The translations under genes were made by a program, and so were the position numbers. Source: Sulfurovum sp. (GTDB lineage Bacteria; Campylobacterota; Campylobacteria; Campylobacterales; Sulfurovaceae). From it: 52,503 bases of DNA. Below, in pieces: positions 426 to 20,005 of the stretch. Within the stretch, counting starts at the first letter, position 1, and each line of letters starts with the position of its first letter. The notes under the pieces were generated by a model, which was not told the DNA's origin, did not search any database, and worked only from the letters and a program-made list of their open reading frames with translations. The DNA lies in assembly GCA_026983515.1 (NCBI GenBank), contig JALWHT010000035.1, positions 13,837-66,339 on the forward strand. The letters run 5' to 3'.

Positions 426-1489
426 GATTTTAATATATAGTTTTCTTCATCTTTTCCCACAATATTGTTGGTATTTATACCAAAAACAGCACAATACTCA
501 TTTGGGTTTCTTTTTTCATGTTTGCCTTGATTAAAATAATGATGGGCAAACTCTCCATCATACTGAGCGACATCTGGATATACTCTTAGATAATAATCTT
601 CATCTACCATTGCTACATCTTTAATCTGTTCTAACAATTGTAATTTTTGTCTTAACATTTTTAATTCTTCTTGCTGCTTTTGAACATCATATTGAAACAA
701 CTTACGGGAGTAATTAAAGTCATTTCGTATTACATCAAATGCATTAAAATCATCAAACCTTTTATTTTGCACTAATAGTAAAAGTTCATCCAGAAAACGT
801 GGTATCTCGTTTGTAAAATTTTCAATGGCAATATTATTATGCTTAATCTTATTATCCAAAAAGTTATCTATTTCTTGTCTTTTTTTTCGTTCTTTAAGAC
901 CGATAAACTTATAAAGTCTATTGATACTATTCCCCGTCTGTTTTAATAGATCATCAAAAGATAAAAATAGTCGCTCATATTCTCTACTAAAATATTCCGC
1001 AGACAAAAAATGATCAATCCAGAGCAAAAGACCTTTTTCAATAGAAAAATTGTTTCTCTTTTTCAAAGAAAAAGCAACTTCCATAGGACTTCTATAAGGA
1101 TGTATAATTTTAATTGTTATATTTAACTCTTGACATGCCTTCTCCCATATTGGAAAGAGTAAACAAATACGAGGGTCTTTAACTACAAAGTTTTGAGCAT
1201 ACTTAAATTCACTTTCTAGAATTTTTTTAGCCTCGTCAACATATGTTTTTATATCCTTTTTTGAAAGATTGTTAAAGTTAAAAAAATACCCACTCCAATC
1301 AGAATTATTTTGAGTTAAAATTTTTTCATTAAGTGCCACTACAAAACTATTTTCAAAAAAACCTTTAGGATTATCTTCCTTAGGACCAATCAGTTCTGAA
1401 CCAAGTTCAAGTCCTAAAATACTCAGTGCACCACTTAAGGCTGATGTTCCACTTCTATGCATACCTAATATAAAATAAGCTGTTTTCAT
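1..1489 (-). CDS. Sulfotransferase-family protein with C-terminal coiled-coil repeats (3' end cut off by window edge)
   Basis: Open minus frame from ATG at 1489 to the window edge: MKTAYFILGMHRSGTSALSGALSILGLELG (PAPS-binding-loop-like GMHRSGTS), then YLRVYPDVAQYDGEFAHHYFNQGKHEKRNPN, then KLKDAEELNKAQSAEIEEQTRALQGLQTKLNEVDAQRVQAVEAYTKEHQELERLNEQFSE repeats. Not in the ORF track because no stop lies inside the window. Confidence 0.8.
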   Translation of the reverse strand, partial: MKTAYFILGMHRSGTSALSGALSILGLELGSELIGPKEDNPKGFFENSFVVALNEKILTQNNSDWSGYFFNFNNLSKKDIKTYVDEAKKILESEFKYAQNFVVKDPRICLLFPIWEKACQELNITIKIIHPYRSPMEVAFSLKKRNNFSIEKGLLLWIDHFLSAEYFSREYERLFLSFDDLLKQTGNSINRLYKFIGLKERKKRQEIDNFLDNKIKHNNIAIENFTNEIPRFLDELLLLVQNKRFDDFNAFDVIRNDFNYSRKLFQYDVQKQQEELKMLRQKLQLLEQIKDVAMVDEDYYLRVYPDVAQYDGEFAHHYFNQGKHEKRNPNEYCAVFGINTNNIVGKDEENYILKSKLKDAEELNKAQSAEIEEQTRALQGLQTKLNEVDAQRVQAVEAYTKEHQELERLNEQFSEIVEDLDAVKESKEKLSKELKKKLKDAEELNKAQSAEIEEQTRALQGLQTKLNEVDAQRVQAVEAYTKEHQELERLNEQFSE

Positions 1490-1497
1490 TCTCTATA

Positions 1498-3804
1498 TCA
1501 CCTTTTTGCTCTTAATTTTACGGTTGAAGTAATATCTAACCCAAATGATTCTGACCTATGTGTTAAATTTAAATTATAATATGTATCTTTTTTCAAATAC
1601 TCTTTCCACTTATTTTTCATATAATTCACTTCTGAATTAAAACGATTAACTTTCTCTTCACTATCTTCAAGTCCTCTAGTTATTGACTCATGGTGATACA
1701 ATTCAACATATGGAGTCCAAATATTTCGATATCCAAAAACAAGCAACTTTAAACAAAAGTCAACATCATTAAAGGCTACTTTTAAATACGTTTCATCAAG
1801 CCCTCCAACCACTTCATACAATTCTTTTCGAACCACCAAACACGCCCCTGTGACAGCCGAAAAGTTTTGGACGATCTTGAGTCTTGAAAAATAACCGTGT
1901 TCCTCTCTTTTAAAATATTTATGAGCATGACCCGCTACCCCGCCAATACCTAAAATTACTCCTGCATGCTGTATGGTATCATTATCATAATAAAGTTTTG
2001 CACCAACAGCACCTATCTCCGGGCGCACGGCATGCTGTACCATCTCTGTCAACCAATGTTTTGAAATAACCTCTACATCATTGTTTATTAGTCCGATGAT
2101 CTCCCCTCTTGCTTCCTGTACAGCAAAGTTGTTAATGGCAGAGTAGTTGAATGCCTTATGATAGGGTATGATGCGGATATGTGAATATGCTTCTGTCAAC
2201 GTATCAAAATAGTGTAGGGTTTTAGGATCTGTTGTTTCATTATCCACAATGATGATCTCATAGTTTTTATAGTCCGTTTTTTCCAAAATACTGCTGATAC
2301 ATTTAGAGAGAATATCGTAACCGTCCCGGGTTGGGACGATCAGGCTTACCAGTGGTTCATTATCAATAGGGTAGGAAACTTTATAGGTATTGGGTAAAAG
2401 ACCGTGTACCACAGAAATGCGCGGATCTTTTTTGGTAAAGTGATTACTTAGTGCCTTCAGCCCAGCATTGGCAGTATGCAGTTTCTCCCCAGAGGCATGT
2501 GCTTTCGAACCGGCAAGTGCCCGCCAATGATAAAGGATTTTCTCTATGTGACAGATCTCATTGTCATTAATTTGCTCTATGACTCTCAAGAACAGGTCAT
2601 AGTCCTGTGCCCCTTCATACCCTTCACGTAAGCCTCCTACTGCTTCAAGCACCGTACTTTCTATCACGCTCAAATGTGAAATATAGTTATAGGAGTAGAA
2701 CATATCGGGGTTCCATCCTGACTTGAAATGAGGGTCGTACCTTCTGTCCTGTTCATCTATCTTGTCCTCATCAGAGTAAATAAGTTTTACTTCCGGATGA
2801 CGGTTGATACACTTCACCACTTCCAAAAGTGCATTGGGTGCCAGCATATCATCATGATCCATAAAGGCAATGTACTCTCCGGTAGTTAACGACAATGCCG
2901 TGTTGAATGCAGCTGAAATATGCCCATTCTTTTTTCTCAAACCAACTTTGATCCGCTGATCTTTTTTTTCATATGCTCTCAGGATTTGTCGTACCTTCTT
3001 ATCCGTGGAAGCGTCATCTGCAATACAGAGTTCCCAGTAAGGATAGGTTTGTGCCAGTACCGAATCCAGTGCTTTTTTAAGATATTTTTCCGGTGTGTTG
3101 TAAGTTGCCATGACAACAGAAATCAGCGGTTTGAGCAAAAACTGCTCTTCTAAAAAGGCGTTAAGTCTGTTTTGCTCATTTTGTTCGATCCAATGCATAT
3201 ATTCCAAATAATGGTGGGGGTTTCGATAAGCTTTGGAAGGGTGTAACCCGTTATACTCTTTTTCAAGCCGTTCCAGCATCCCTGCCCATCCGTGTTTTTT
3301 GTAGCGCACGTGTGACTTGCGTACAATGGCAAAAGGGTCTTTCAGTTCACGGTAATCCCTCATCATAAGTGTCACAAGCTGCTGATAGATATGGATCAAT
3401 TCTGAATGAACAGAGAGAAAAATATCGGCAATATAAAACCGGCAAGGCACTTCCGCAGGGTCAAATCGAATACCTTTCAAAGATTCGTTTAGCACCAATT
3501 GTGCCTGATATTCTCCTTTATTGTGGGTAGGCTGCATACAGACTGTCAGGCTTTCAGAGTAGCCTTCACCAAAGTCAAGATAGAGCTTGGGGCTCAACTT
3601 CTGATCAGAAACAACATGTACATGAATGCTCACCCACCCGGAGAGCAGCTTGGGAAATACACCTTTTAGTTTGAACTGAGGATCATGATCGGTTGCCTGC
3701 CAGTAGCTGTCTTGCGCCTGTTCTACTCCCCGTAAGGGTACTGCCTTCAATTTTTTCTTTTGCAAAAAGGGGTAGCTAAAAGCTGTGATCAACCGCATTG
3801 GCAA
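1498..3804 (-). CDS. Glycosyltransferase with two GT2 domains
   Basis: VVMATYNTPEKYLKKALDSVLAQTYPYWELCIADDASTD and LIVPTRDGYDILSKCISSILEKTDYKNYEIIIVDNETTD: two GT-A/GT2 N-terminal motifs. Confidence 0.9.
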   Translation of the reverse strand: MPMRLITAFSYPFLQKKKLKAVPLRGVEQAQDSYWQATDHDPQFKLKGVFPKLLSGWVSIHVHVVSDQKLSPKLYLDFGEGYSESLTVCMQPTHNKGEYQAQLVLNESLKGIRFDPAEVPCRFYIADIFLSVHSELIHIYQQLVTLMMRDYRELKDPFAIVRKSHVRYKKHGWAGMLERLEKEYNGLHPSKAYRNPHHYLEYMHWIEQNEQNRLNAFLEEQFLLKPLISVVMATYNTPEKYLKKALDSVLAQTYPYWELCIADDASTDKKVRQILRAYEKKDQRIKVGLRKKNGHISAAFNTALSLTTGEYIAFMDHDDMLAPNALLEVVKCINRHPEVKLIYSDEDKIDEQDRRYDPHFKSGWNPDMFYSYNYISHLSVIESTVLEAVGGLREGYEGAQDYDLFLRVIEQINDNEICHIEKILYHWRALAGSKAHASGEKLHTANAGLKALSNHFTKKDPRISVVHGLLPNTYKVSYPIDNEPLVSLIVPTRDGYDILSKCISSILEKTDYKNYEIIIVDNETTDPKTLHYFDTLTEAYSHIRIIPYHKAFNYSAINNFAVQEARGEIIGLINNDVEVISKHWLTEMVQHAVRPEIGAVGAKLYYDNDTIQHAGVILGIGGVAGHAHKYFKREEHGYFSRLKIVQNFSAVTGACLVVRKELYEVVGGLDETYLKVAFNDVDFCLKLLVFGYRNIWTPYVELYHHESITRGLEDSEEKVNRFNSEVNYMKNKWKEYLKKDTYYNLNLTHRSESFGLDITSTVKLRAKR

Positions 3805-4894: not shown

Positions 4895-5563
4895 CTATCT
4901 ACCCTCTTGATTAATCTCATTATAGCGTTTTATCCCTTCTTCAATATCGTCAAAATAGTGTAATTCACCTTCATGTACCAGCAAACCCGCCTGGCACATA
5001 TCCCTAAGGGTTTTCATGTCATGGCTGACCAGGATCACATGACAGTTCTCAATCTTCTTTTTCAAGTGTGTTTTTGCTTTTGTTCTGAAGCGTGCATCCC
5101 CTACTGACAGGGTTTCATCAATCAACATATAGTCAAAATCAAAAGCGAGACTCAATCCAAATCCCAATCGTCCCCGCATACCAGAAGAGTAGGTTTTCAT
5201 TGGCATATCGAAGTACTCTTCCAGTTCACTGAACTCCTGTACATACGCAATGACTGCCCTAGTCTCTTCTCTGCTCTTGCCATAAAGATTGCAGACAAAC
5301 TTTACATTCTGTCTGCCTGTCATATTGCCCACAAAGCCTCCAGAGAGTCCAAGAGGCCAGGAAAAATTCTGTCTCGATGCAATTGTACCTTCATTGGGAA
5401 AGTCTATCTTCCCCAGCATCCGCATCAGGGTTGACTTTCCCATACCATTACGACCAAGTATTCCGATATTCACATCCGGCAAAACTATGGTTACATGTTT
5501 AAGGATATACTTCTTGCTATTGTTAGTACGAAAATACTTCGTAACATTTTTAAGTTCTATCAT
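4895..5563 (-). CDS. kpsT: Capsule polysaccharide ABC transporter ATP-binding protein
   Basis: GRNGMGKSTL Walker A; YSSGMRGRLGFGLSLAFDFDYMLIDE signature/Walker B. Likely start MIELKNVTKYF at 5563, overlapping the kpsM stop (ATGA). Confidence 0.88.
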   Translation of the reverse strand: MIELKNVTKYFRTNNSKKYILKHVTIVLPDVNIGILGRNGMGKSTLMRMLGKIDFPNEGTIASRQNFSWPLGLSGGFVGNMTGRQNVKFVCNLYGKSREETRAVIAYVQEFSELEEYFDMPMKTYSSGMRGRLGFGLSLAFDFDYMLIDETLSVGDARFRTKAKTHLKKKIENCHVILVSHDMKTLRDMCQAGLLVHEGELHYFDDIEEGIKRYNEINQEGR

Positions 5564-6360
5564 TCCGACACGATCCTCCGCTCCAGCATACGGTAGAACC
5601 ATAAGCCCATAAAAAGGGGGAGAATCGTCCACAGCAACATATAGTAGTAGTTGACGAACCTGTCATCAAGTGCTTCTAAATAAAATCCATGAATCATTTC
5701 CATAAAATGTGTTAAAGGATTATATAACAGCACATCCTGCACAGTTGGAGGCAAGCTGATTAAAGGATAAAAAACAGCAGAAAAAAGAAGTAGTCCAAAA
5801 GTAGAAATGGAAACTGTTTTCCCAACACTTATAAAAAATGTATTGCCTACCGCGATAAGAATAGCAAAAGCAACAGAAAATATCCAAAGCCATATATAGC
5901 CTAAAAATACCATTGGTATATTATTGGGTAAAACATCTCCAACATGAAAGAAAAGACCGATAGCAAGGAACATCATAACAATAATGACTGAAAGAAACAA
6001 CTCTACCAGTGCACGAGCGATAATGGTATCGATAGGTTTTACCTGTTTATAACTGAAAAGCCCTTTGTTTGCCTGAAATGCTCCTATAGACGAATTTAAA
6101 ATAGCACGAAACATGTTAAACGGGATAAAGCCGGAAGCCATGAATACAACGTAGTTAAAGCTTGATTGTCCTCCACCATATTCACGAATAGCTGCATGAA
6201 TAGATATTAAAACAAAAATTTGGAAAAAAGGTTCAAAAAAGGTCCAGAACAAGCCTGTACGCCCCGCACTTATGCGTGTATCCAGTTCTCGAAGAAAAAG
6301 AGCTTTGATCACCGATATAAAAATAAAAGTAGGTTTTCTTTGTTTCAATCTCAGCCTCAA
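5560..6360 (-). CDS. kpsM: Capsule polysaccharide ABC transporter permease
   Basis: About six TM segments, ABC-2 exporter type (GRTGLFWTFFEPFFQIFVLISIHAAIREYGG), directly upstream of kpsT. Confidence 0.85.
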   Translation of the reverse strand: MRLRLKQRKPTFIFISVIKALFLRELDTRISAGRTGLFWTFFEPFFQIFVLISIHAAIREYGGGQSSFNYVVFMASGFIPFNMFRAILNSSIGAFQANKGLFSYKQVKPIDTIIARALVELFLSVIIVMMFLAIGLFFHVGDVLPNNIPMVFLGYIWLWIFSVAFAILIAVGNTFFISVGKTVSISTFGLLLFSAVFYPLISLPPTVQDVLLYNPLTHFMEMIHGFYLEALDDRFVNYYYMLLWTILPLFMGLWFYRMLERRIVSE

Positions 6361-15628: not shown

Positions 15629-16867
15629 ATGTCATTTACAACACTGGGGCTCAATGAAGCGCTCCTCAAAGCAATCAAAGAAACAGGCTACACTGCCCCA
15701 ACCCCCATTCAGGCAAAAGCGATTCCCACTGTCATCGAGAGCAAAGATGTTCTCGCAGCAGCACAGACAGGCACAGGCAAGACCGCCGGTTTTACCCTCC
15801 CTATTTTGCAGCGTCTCTCACAGACACAGCCACATATGAAACCAAAACAGATCCGAGTACTGGTACTCACCCCCACACGCGAACTTGCCGCGCAGGTCGA
15901 AGAGAGCATCAAGACCTACGGCAAATACCTTCCCCACTCCTCTACCGTCATCTTCGGCGGCGTGGGTATCAACCCGCAGCTTGCAGCACTCAGAAAAGGA
16001 GTGGAAATCGTCGTCGCCACACCAGGCAGGCTGCTTGACATTGCAGGACAGAAAGGCATTGACTTTTCAGCCCTGGAAACACTCGTGCTCGACGAAGCGG
16101 ACAGAATGCTCGATATGGGCTTTATTCACGATATCAAAAAACTGATGAAGATGATGCCAAAACAGAAACAGACCCTGCTCTTTTCAGCCACCTTCTCCAA
16201 AGAGATCAAACAGCTCGCTTCCAGTCTGCTGCATAACCCAGTACTCATAGAGGTTGCACGTGAAAATACGACTGCTACACAGATAAGCCAGGTGGTACAT
16301 CCGGTAGACAAGTCACGCAAAAGAGCCCTGCTGACACAACTTATCAAAGAGAAGCAATGGTCGCAGGTACTTGTCTTTACACGTACAAAACATGGTGCCA
16401 ACAGGCTGACAAAACAGTTGAGTGAAGCAGGTATCGGTGCAGCAGCCATTCACGGTGACAAATCACAGGGGGCACGCACCAAGGCGCTGGCAGCCTTTAA
16501 ATCCAACACCATTCAGGTACTGGTCGCTACCGACATTGCCGCCAGAGGTATCGACATCGACCAGCTGCCACACGTGGTCAACTACGAACTGCCCAACGTC
16601 CCCGAAGACTATGTGCACCGCATTGGACGTACCGGACGTGCCGGACAGAGCGGAGAGGCTGTTTCACTCGTGTGTATTGATGAGCACAAACTCCTTGCAG
16701 ACATCGAACGCTTTACAAAGTCAAAAATTGAAAAAGTGCAGATAGAAGGATATACGCCCGACCCCAGCATCAAAGCCGAACCCATTCAGAAAAAACAGCA
16801 GAACAGAAACCGTTCACGCGGCGCATCGCCACGCAACGGCAACAGAAACAGCCGTAGCAGAGCTTAA
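15629..16867 (+). CDS. rhlE: DEAD-box RNA helicase (RhlE-like)
   Basis: [46 protein letters not shown]; basic R/N/S-rich tail. Start set at ATG 15629 ([16 protein letters not shown]). Confidence 0.93.
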
Positions 16868-17943
16868 AGGCGCGTCTTAAGCTTCTGAATACGTGCGTAG
16901 GAAGTATCTATGCGTGCTTTGGATACCTTTCCTTCCCGGATCAGTCTCTCAACGGTCTCAACCAACATTTTGGTCGACACCACTTTTCGCGGATCGAGCT
17001 GGTTGCCAAAGAGCAGTATGTCATCTCCGGCATTGATGGCAAGTTCCAGTGTTTTTTTGAGTGCATATTTTTGACTGATCGCCCCCATCTGAAGATCATC
17101 GGTAATCACGACCCCCTGAAATCCGATCTTTTTTCGTAACAGCCCCTCTACTGTTCTTTGTGACAGTGTCGCGGGATAGTTCGCGTCAAGTTTTTTGTTA
17201 AATACATGCGCAACCATTACGGTATCGGCTTTGTTTTTGAGCAACCTGTAGGGCTCCAGCTCAACAGGCTTCCACAAATGGGTCACATCGACAAACCCTT
17301 TATGGGTATCGCCCACAGAAGAGCCGTGACCGGGGAAATGTTTGAGAGAGGTCAATACCCCGTAGCGGTGCATCGCATCAATAAAAATGGAGGCATACTT
17401 CTCTACCGTTCTGGGGTCTTTCCCAAATGAGCGTCCCAACCCGTGAATCACATGGTTTTTAGGGTTGATGTCAAGGTCTACCACCGGTGCAAGGTCGTAG
17501 TTGATACCGACACTTTTAAGCTCTTTTGCCATCTTTGTATACGTCTGCTTCATATTGCCGGATTTCACCACATCGGCCGCTTTGGGGAATTTGCCGTAGA
17601 AACCGTACCTGCGCTTTAGACGCTGTACCCTTCCCCCTTCCTGGTCGACGGCAATAAGCAGTTTCCTGTCACGGCTGCACGCCTGAAGCTCCTTTGTAAG
17701 TCTGGCTACCTGTGCTTTGGAAGCAATGTTTTTGGGTTTGCTTTTATCAACCGGATTATAATCGAACAAAATGACAGCACCGAGATTGTACTGTCTGATA
17801 TCGTTGCATATTTGCGAACCGGGCTTTGCAGAAGTACCGTGAAACCCCACCATGAGCATCTGCCCGATCTTTTGTTCCAGCGAGACGTGTGCAGAGAGCA
17901 CAGAAACTCCGACCGCCACGCAAAAGAGCATCTTTTTTATCAT
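16864..17943 (-). CDS. nagZ: Glycoside hydrolase family 3, beta-N-acetylhexosaminidase
   Basis: [43 protein letters not shown]; 4-bp convergent overlap with the helicase gene. Confidence 0.88.
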
Positions 17944-19089: not shown

Positions 19090-19267
19090 TTTTCATCCTT
19101 GTTTAGAAAATTTTGGTAACAATCCATAGAGTCACTATACATCAATAAAAATTGCAGTTTACTTTACCCCATCTGCTTTACCTTGAAATTCCAGAATTTA
19201 CATCAAACATAGAATATTTTTCATGAACATTAGTGTTCGGTTAAACTTCCCGCTCTATACTTTCACC

Positions 19268-19394
19268 ATAAGAGCATCAGGGATCAACCAAAAATAAAAT
19301 CTCCTCCTCCCCTATAAAAGATTTCATTTTGGTCTCCTTTTTCATAGATTTTTCCTCCTCCTTTTAAAATCTTCCTTGATGCTCTTAGTTTTTT
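19268..19394 (+). ncRNA. Candidate structured small RNA with two anti-Shine-Dalgarno hairpin loops
   Basis: TATACT (19256-19261) 6 nt upstream of the 5' end; 19269-19283 pairs with 19373-19387 (14 WC + 1 G-U); hairpin 19288-19332 with loop CCTCCTCCCCTATAAA; hairpin 19346-19372 with loop TCCTCCTCCTTTT; T6 at 19389-19394. Confidence 0.65.
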
Positions 19395-19489
19395 CCAAAA
19401 CTTTTTCAAAACTTCACAATTGTTACATAATGGTTAATGTATACTATCTATAATGTCATCAAGACGAATACTACAACAAAGGTTTATAG

Positions 19490-20005
19490 ATGAAAAAACT
19501 ACTCACCATTGTGTTGCTGACGCTTGCACTCGTAAGCACTTCACAGGCACAAACAAAAAAGAAAAGCCTCCATATCAAAGATATTAACGGGAAAAGCTAC
19601 ACTGTCAGCGGTACACCTGAAGGACTTAAAATTTCCGGAATGGAAGGCAAAGTGGTCTTTTTGGAATTCTTCGGTCACAAATGCCCTCCCTGTCTCATGA
19701 CCATCCCGCATCTGATCGATATGCAAAAAAAGCACAAAGGTAAACTTGCAGTTGTGGCCGTAGAGGTACAGGGGTACAGCAACAGTCAGTTAAAACGTTT
19801 TGTCAAACAAAAGGGCATCAACTATACCGTTATTTCCGGTGAACAGGAACGTCTTTTTGTCAGCTACATTGCACAAAGAGCACAGTGGGAGGGAAGTATC
19901 CCTTTCCTGATCGCGCTTGATACAAAAGGTGACGTTCAATTCATTCAGGTAGGCTTACTGTCAGAGTCTTCGCTTGAAAAGCTCTTTCAGCAGCTTAGCA
20001 AATAA
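19490..20005 (+). CDS. Thioredoxin-like (TlpA/ResA type) periplasmic protein
   Basis: Signal peptide MKKLLTIVLLTLALVSTSQA; VVFLEFFGHKCPPCLMTIPHL CxxC motif. Confidence 0.88.
   Translation: MKKLLTIVLLTLALVSTSQAQTKKKSLHIKDINGKSYTVSGTPEGLKISGMEGKVVFLEFFGHKCPPCLMTIPHLIDMQKKHKGKLAVVAVEVQGYSNSQLKRFVKQKGINYTVISGEQERLFVSYIAQRAQWEGSIPFLIALDTKGDVQFIQVGLLSESSLEKLFQQLSK

Follow-up and report, generated by a model that had tools for sequence, protein, structure and literature searches.

Locus and Features

The stretch of Sulfurovum DNA analyzed here (the window; 52,503 nucleotides) contains, between a gene for a NagZ-like cell-wall hydrolase (nagZ) and a gene for a thioredoxin-like protein (trx), a small RNA (sRNA) gene that, judging from its sequence, appears not to have been described previously. 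Rfam gave no match at the gathering threshold in the whole window, and a local scan at E values of up to 5 returned chance matches only, in line with an earlier note on this DNA, which had recognized no described family. A search of open-license papers likewise found no sRNA of this kind described in Sulfurovum and no conserved sRNA family described for environmental Campylobacterota. An arginine kinase gene (ATP:guanido phosphotransferase; PF00217; 18058 to 19089) lies between nagZ and the RNA in the window and is absent there in most relatives. The features of the locus are as follows.

16864 to 17943, minus strand: NagZ-like glycosyl hydrolase family 3 protein (cell-wall hydrolase; PF00933, 6.4e-65), syntenic neighbor
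19230 to 19246, plus strand: promoter box TTAGTG-TTCGG-TTAAAC, a direct repeat of the hexamer-N5-hexamer type that stands where a -35 element would be, presumed site of an OmpR/PhoB-type response regulator
19256 to 19261, plus strand: -10 element TATACT, 9 nt past the box; the Box-N9-TATAMT spacing is retained in relatives
19268 to 19388, plus strand: sRNA gene (fold z score of -6.46; covariance-model match spanning the whole model)
19269 to 19283, plus strand: 5' arm of the closing helix, core AAGAGCAUC
19287 to 19332, plus strand: inner hairpin 1; stem changes are compensated and a C-rich run is retained in the apical loop
19301 to 19312, plus strand: C/U tract 1 (CUCCUCCUCCCC), the apical loop of hairpin 1, its core unpaired in the minimum free energy (MFE) fold
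19334 to 19342, plus strand: C/U tract 2 (CUCCUUUUU), linker between the hairpins
19343 to 19365, plus strand: CAU (19343 to 19345), spacer, and C/U tract 3, the reverse complement of a Shine-Dalgarno (SD)-spacer-AUG arrangement
19346 to 19372, plus strand: hairpin 2, in the MFE fold; found only in the window's close relatives
19354 to 19365, plus strand: C/U tract 3 (CCUCCUCCUUUU)
19373 to 19387, plus strand: 3' arm of the closing helix, core GAUGCUCUU, supported by the fold, by pairing and covariation among relatives, and by the sister genus
19412 to 19454, plus strand: separate trx promoter with a CTTCAC-N5-TTACAT box and a -10 region (TATACT, 19440 to 19445; TATAAT, 19449 to 19454)
19490 to 20005, plus strand: thioredoxin/AhpC-TSA-fold protein (PF00578, 2.2e-11), syntenic neighbor

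The MFE fold of positions 19262 to 19394 on the plus strand has an energy of -31.8 kcal/mol, compared with -15.2 ± 2.6 kcal/mol for 200 dinucleotide shuffles, none of which was as good (z score, -6.46). Direct reading confirmed the coordinates that the earlier note had given for TATACT, the arms of the closing stem, the T6 run, and the loops: TAAGAGCATCAGGGA at 19269 to 19283 pairs with TCCTTGATGCTCTTA at 19373 to 19387, and T6 occupies 19389 to 19394. The closing stem, hairpin 1, and hairpin 2 all appear in this fold with the loops proposed for them, and only the interior of hairpin 1 differs, folding as 7 plus 6 pairs flanking a small internal loop rather than as 13 bp with one mismatch and one bulge. 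The 5' end of the sRNA is placed at about 19268, and its 3' end would be either the end of the closing stem or a point inside the U run, up to 19394. The U run that the earlier note had taken to frame the transcript is present in the window but is missing in most relatives, and a standard terminator scan found no terminator at the window locus. The sequence CCTCCTCC, present at 19303 to 19310 and at 19354 to 19361, occurs 3 times in the window versus 1.0 expected, and 8 of 100 shuffles reach 3; since these repeats alone are little above chance, the significance of the sRNA lies in its structure and conservation.

Distribution, Synteny, and Copy Number

Searched at the DNA level, 100 related genomes gave clear homologs within the same genus. 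A covariance model built from 36 copies (A1) detected the RNA in 68 of the 78 genomes of the genus, to which a second model (R2) added G019 and G040, and two near-complete genomes (G020 and G029) yielded no credible match. Among 300 genomes drawn from the order, the sole match outside the genus was marginal and looks like chance. Marginal covariance-model matches outside the genus, in G139 (L090) and G407 (L211), were rejected as chance, no supporting sequence or neighbors being seen. Named records that carry both box and stem belong to Sulfurovum, including Sulfurovum sp. AR, or to Campylobacterota/Epsilonproteobacteria, and nearly all of them are metagenome assembled; the box-and-stem pattern was found in no viral contig.

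The main-locus copies that were checked lie between nagZ, on the opposite strand, and the thioredoxin-like gene, on the strand of the RNA, always in one orientation. No trx was seen among the genes called downstream of the RNA in G002 (L010). A single full copy and no dispersed copies are present in the window's own genome, and some relatives have two or three copies per genome. A cis-acting 5' leader of trx, such as an attenuator or a thermosensor that makes no free sRNA, would agree with the position of the RNA at the main locus, where it lies near trx, upstream on the same strand, with no strong terminator in between. This explanation is nevertheless unlikely, as the main locus holds one copy or, often, two in tandem, the tandem copies each having their own box and -10 element; a group of genomes carries copies at a second locus, ahead of a polysaccharide deacetylase gene; and an element of similar design at bioC again has TATAAT between the RNA and the gene. 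In addition, a trx promoter of the form TTACAC-N5-TTACAT ... TATAATG is retained between the RNA and the start codon in most main-locus copies, and this conserved, separate promoter is evidence that the RNA is not simply the trx leader. The direct-repeat box of trx itself precedes the trx -10 element, and its geometry is again OmpR/PhoB-like.

Structural Conservation and Covariation

In each of the 36 A1 copies, the two core arms of the closing helix, AAGAGCAUC and GAUGCUCUU, pair with each other, and in two divergent clades 94.3% and 92.5% of cells are paired. The covariation score was 0.229 for A4, versus 0.122 ± 0.014 for shuffled controls, and 0.221 for A3, versus 0.140 ± 0.011; in both cases, 0 of 500 shuffles scored as high, and slid controls reached at most 0.113. 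Cells changed on both sides numbered 27 and 25, compared with shuffled means of 8.9 and 8.6, in sequences that are related and hence non-independent. Since the A3 and A4 structures were written by hand from the sequences, which favors the percentage paired, these both-side changes are the stronger evidence. Helix 2, which belongs to hairpin 1, shows both-side changes in five of nine pairs of A4 and three of nine pairs of A3. RNAalifold applied to a genus-wide MAFFT alignment found the closing stem only, because hairpin 1 is misaligned there and clade alignments are needed, and a pairwise compensation test over all copies was positive, with noise from misalignment.

At the same nagZ/trx/dprA locus in the sister genus g83 (G391), the closing helix, AAGGATATCGG/CCGATATCCTT, is wholly different yet paired, and the locus also has an inner hairpin as well as the sequence CAUCAUUUCCUCCUCCUUUU and the same box half (CGGTTAAA). 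In G040 (L210), the RNA is reduced to a minimal version of about 70 nt: the inner hairpin is gone, but the closing stem and several C/U tracts remain, which points to the latter two as the essential parts. Over 92 distinct copies, the mean z score was -5.0 for the whole RNA and -1.4 for its interior. The conserved parts are a helix that closes the 5' and 3' ends, a single inner hairpin, and C/U tracts that are mostly unpaired and usually number two to four. Hairpin 2 was considered as a family feature and rejected: it is confined to close relatives, and the 3' tract is single stranded in most others, so that of the two anti-SD loops proposed in the earlier note, both of which form in the window, the second is local. 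The broader proposal of that note, an independent plus-strand RNA gene with a promoter, a closing stem, and C/U tracts, is borne out by the comparison, in which the gene is conserved and its helices covary; an absence of conservation or covariation of the loops and closing stem among relatives, which would have spoken against it, was not what the computations found.

Promoter and Its Box

The 17-bp box at 19230 to 19246 is conserved and was overlooked in the earlier note. Its exact form, TTAGTNTNCGGTTAAMC, turns up 42 times when the 78 genomes of the genus are searched, in every case at a copy of the nagZ/trx RNA. With up to 3 mismatches, the box matches the window once only, and in 10 genomes searched for the box (up to 3 mismatches) together with a -10 element, only five matches fell away from the RNA loci, one of which is another RNA of similar design, upstream of bioC. 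The OmpR-type regulator HP1043 recognizes a hexamer-N5-hexamer site with 11-bp spacing, upstream of a -10 element and without a -35 element (PMC5253667), and the box of the nagZ/trx RNA has the same geometry. By this analogy, the box is probably bound by an OmpR/PhoB-family response regulator. A box-like promoter with 3 mismatches also lies upstream of a response-regulator gene in a relative (L326; G036:C34:44701-44732); this gene is possibly that of the regulator itself, or the match is due to chance.

C/U Tracts, Proposed Mechanism, and Candidate Target

The interior of the RNA is G poor (8% G) and carries a mean of 2.9 C/U tracts per copy, versus 2.3 in shuffles; across the family, these tracts are on average 82% unpaired, versus 56% for the whole interior. 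A CAU lies at most 13 nt 5' of a tract in the 3' half in 53 of 92 copies, versus 15 expected and a maximum of 23 among 40 shuffled sets, the 92 copies including related, non-independent sequences. With CAU placed before the 3' tract, the segment often resembles the reverse complement of an SD-spacer-AUG arrangement.

Taken together, the RNA is likely to be an Hfq-independent, response-regulator-controlled small regulatory RNA that represses translation by pairing of its C/U tracts with the SD sequences of particular mRNAs. We infer an RNA of about 100 to 125 nt whose transcription would begin immediately upstream of the closing helix, driven by a housekeeping-type -10 element (TATAMT) at which the -35 element is replaced by the direct-repeat box, probably for an OmpR/PhoB-family response regulator. 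Pairing of the 5' and 3' ends would shield the RNA from nucleases and keep usually two to four G-poor C/U tracts exposed, in a hairpin loop, in a linker, and in a long single-stranded segment. These tracts would base pair with the SDs of particular mRNAs and so block ribosome entry; many copies could continue the duplex through the spacer and over the AUG. Hfq (TIGR02383) was found in 0 of 41 genomes, with positive controls; as the genus appears to lack it, the RNA would not need Hfq.

A target-unspecific mimic of the 16S tail, which would bind SDs globally and titrate ribosomes, had been put forward in the earlier note next to a trans-acting repressor. Each molecule has several CCUCC tracts resembling the 16S tail, but the comparison produced no specific evidence for such a mimic, and we regard it as improbable. 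When the single-stranded segment was paired with 300 genes of G050, the energy was -11.0 for start regions, -9.5 for coding sequence, and -10.5 with composition-shuffled RNA, and for the hairpin 1 loop alone, shuffled RNA paired better than the real one; overall start-region pairing is thus barely above controls, and broad SD titration is not supported. The conserved segment, moreover, often has a spacer and CAU beyond the 16S-like core, and its sequence looks more like the antisense of a translation initiation region than like a 16S-tail mimic.

For the preferred reading, a repressor of particular mRNAs, the best target among the 300 genes of G050 was an efflux adaptor (membrane-fusion protein [MFP]) behind a TolC-like gene, both families being named from reading the sequences and not from a profile search. 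Twelve further genomes were scored, each with its own RNA; in 11 of them, the duplex with the MFP start region had an energy of -19.0 to -26.7 kcal/mol and placed within the top 17 when set against 300 background start regions. This ranking is to be read with the facts that the choice of MFP came from taking the top candidate of 300 in a single genome and that MFP has a strong SD of its own, also in relatives, strong SDs ranking high by construction. On these modeled energies, MFP is a weakly supported candidate target. The neighboring genes, this candidate, and the analogy with LhrC discussed below lead us to guess that envelope stress could be the inducing signal.

A function of the minus strand, either as a CsrA titrator with GGA loops or as a short open reading frame with a strong SD (MKKETKMKSFIGEEEILFLVDP in the window), is very improbable; the reverse complement contains AAGGAGGAGGAAAAATCTATGAAAAAGG, which is a perfect start region, and the structure comes close to symmetry, but the ATG is lost (ATA or ATT) in copies of L042, L051, L054, and L057 and absent from many divergent copies, and the conserved box and -10 element exist on the plus side only, reading into the RNA. 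Both minus-strand versions were rejected, as the start codon is unconserved. Within the genus, the closing helix hardly varies over its 9-bp core, a constraint that exceeds the need of pairing alone and counts against the sRNA reading; still, a DNA element, whether an inverted-repeat mobile element (MITE) or a protein-binding palindrome, to which such terminal repeats around a variable interior and the extra copies in some relatives would be suited, has hardly any probability, given the synteny fixed across the genus, the promoter box outside the repeats, the covariation of inner and outer helices, the wholesale replacement of the inverted repeat in the sister genus, and the single copy in the window's own genome, and a MITE or dispersed repeat was accordingly rejected.

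Further RNAs of Similar Design

Box matches also revealed an RNA-like element that lies ahead of bioC in the window's own genome (L325/L329; G000:C137:10711-10876), with homologs in seven further genomes (L330 to L336), eight in total. It has the box, a -10 element, a closing stem that changes with pairing kept, a hairpin with a C/U loop, and a CAU plus C/U segment. The window's group forms the closing stem from CCCUUCCC/GGGGAAGGG, G112 from CCUCUCCACCCG/CGGGCGGAGAGG, and G016 from CCCCUUCCUAA/UUAGGAAGGGG. With either CUUCC or CCUCCUCCC as its loop, an inner hairpin (AAUGUUU..AAACAU) can form. As the fold of the element's own copy alone is not significant (z score, 0), the bioC family rests on the comparison of these genomes. 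Tandem pairs of closing-stem RNAs with C/U-rich interiors were also seen in G024 (L328; about 1293 to 1552, minus strand), where the pair lies upstream of a NifU-like gene, and in G050 (L283; about 5480 to 5680); their stems differ between the two genomes but are paired. A generic scan for a closing stem with a C/U interior showed no excess over a reversed control, and the additional families are therefore based on box or sequence similarity. At least three unlinked genes for sRNAs against initiation regions (nagZ/trx, bioC, and the NifU-like tandem pair) might form an Hfq-free regulon under one response regulator, a reading that is conceivable, with somewhat less than even chances, and in which all of these genes would share an end-sealing helix, C/U tracts, and related OmpR-type boxes.

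The nagZ/trx RNA probably silences selected mRNAs at the level of translation with no help from Hfq, which matters for how sRNAs find their targets in Campylobacterota that lack Hfq, as the genomes tested here appear to. Because the RNA covaries, is syntenic, and offers clear candidate pairing tracts along with a promoter box that is almost exclusive to it, its regulator and targets can be looked for directly.

Comparison with Known Anti-Shine-Dalgarno sRNAs

RepG of Helicobacter pylori, which is encoded between hp1043 and hp1044, uses its terminator loop against a homopolymeric G repeat (PMC8295292). It comes from the same phylum and is likewise an sRNA that uses a C/U-rich loop (PMC8295292), but the Sulfurovum RNA has no terminator hairpin with a C/U loop, and its locus is nagZ/trx, not a site beside hp1043. 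The UCCC-motif sRNAs of Gram-positive bacteria (RsaE, RNAIII, SprD, and FsrA) block SD sequences with C-rich motifs (summarized in PMC4132741); they belong to another lineage and other loci. Hfq-dependent sRNAs differ in relying on a protein that none of the 41 genomes was found to encode.

The cuckoo RNAs, CcsR, and SmelA075 of alphaproteobacteria carry CCUCCUCC anti-SD motifs in loops, have variable stems and several modules, and are linked to stress (PMC3927594, PMC10253847). In SmelA075-type RNAs, hairpins follow one another in a string and every one has a CCUCCUCCC loop, and CcsR1 to CcsR4 share a transcript with a DUF1127 gene, are driven by an RpoH promoter, and undergo RNase E processing (PMC3927594, PMC10253847). 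Anti-SD motifs in loops with variable stems are common to these RNAs and the Sulfurovum RNA, whereas the latter has one inner hairpin and, in most copies, a single-stranded 3' tract, and it neighbors nagZ and trx with a promoter of its own and without DUF1127/CcaF1 cotranscription or any sign of an RpoH promoter or RNase E processing.

The closest functional parallel is the LhrC family of Listeria monocytogenes (LhrC1 to LhrC5, Rli22, and Rli33-1), a group of multicopy sibling sRNAs that pair with the SD region, control lapB without a need for Hfq, and are, for most members, activated by the response regulator LisR (PMC4132741, PMC5880928). The Sulfurovum RNA similarly has multiple single-stranded C/U sites and, in relatives, several copies with a box and a -10 element (one full copy in the window genome). 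Where LhrC has LisR-dependent promoters, it has a box of OmpR-type geometry, and its putative repression of target mRNAs by SD pairing was addressed by energy calculations. It differs in showing no sequence or covariance similarity (no Rfam match) and in belonging to another phylum, in having ends that form one closing helix around all tracts with no terminator loop, and in its frequent anti-AUG element. On the best reading of this analogy, the nagZ/trx RNA would act most like LhrC without being related to it in sequence, which suggests that response-regulator-controlled anti-SD sRNAs with C/U tracts evolved on more than one occasion, in both Firmicutes and Campylobacterota, beside the anti-SD RNAs of alphaproteobacteria.
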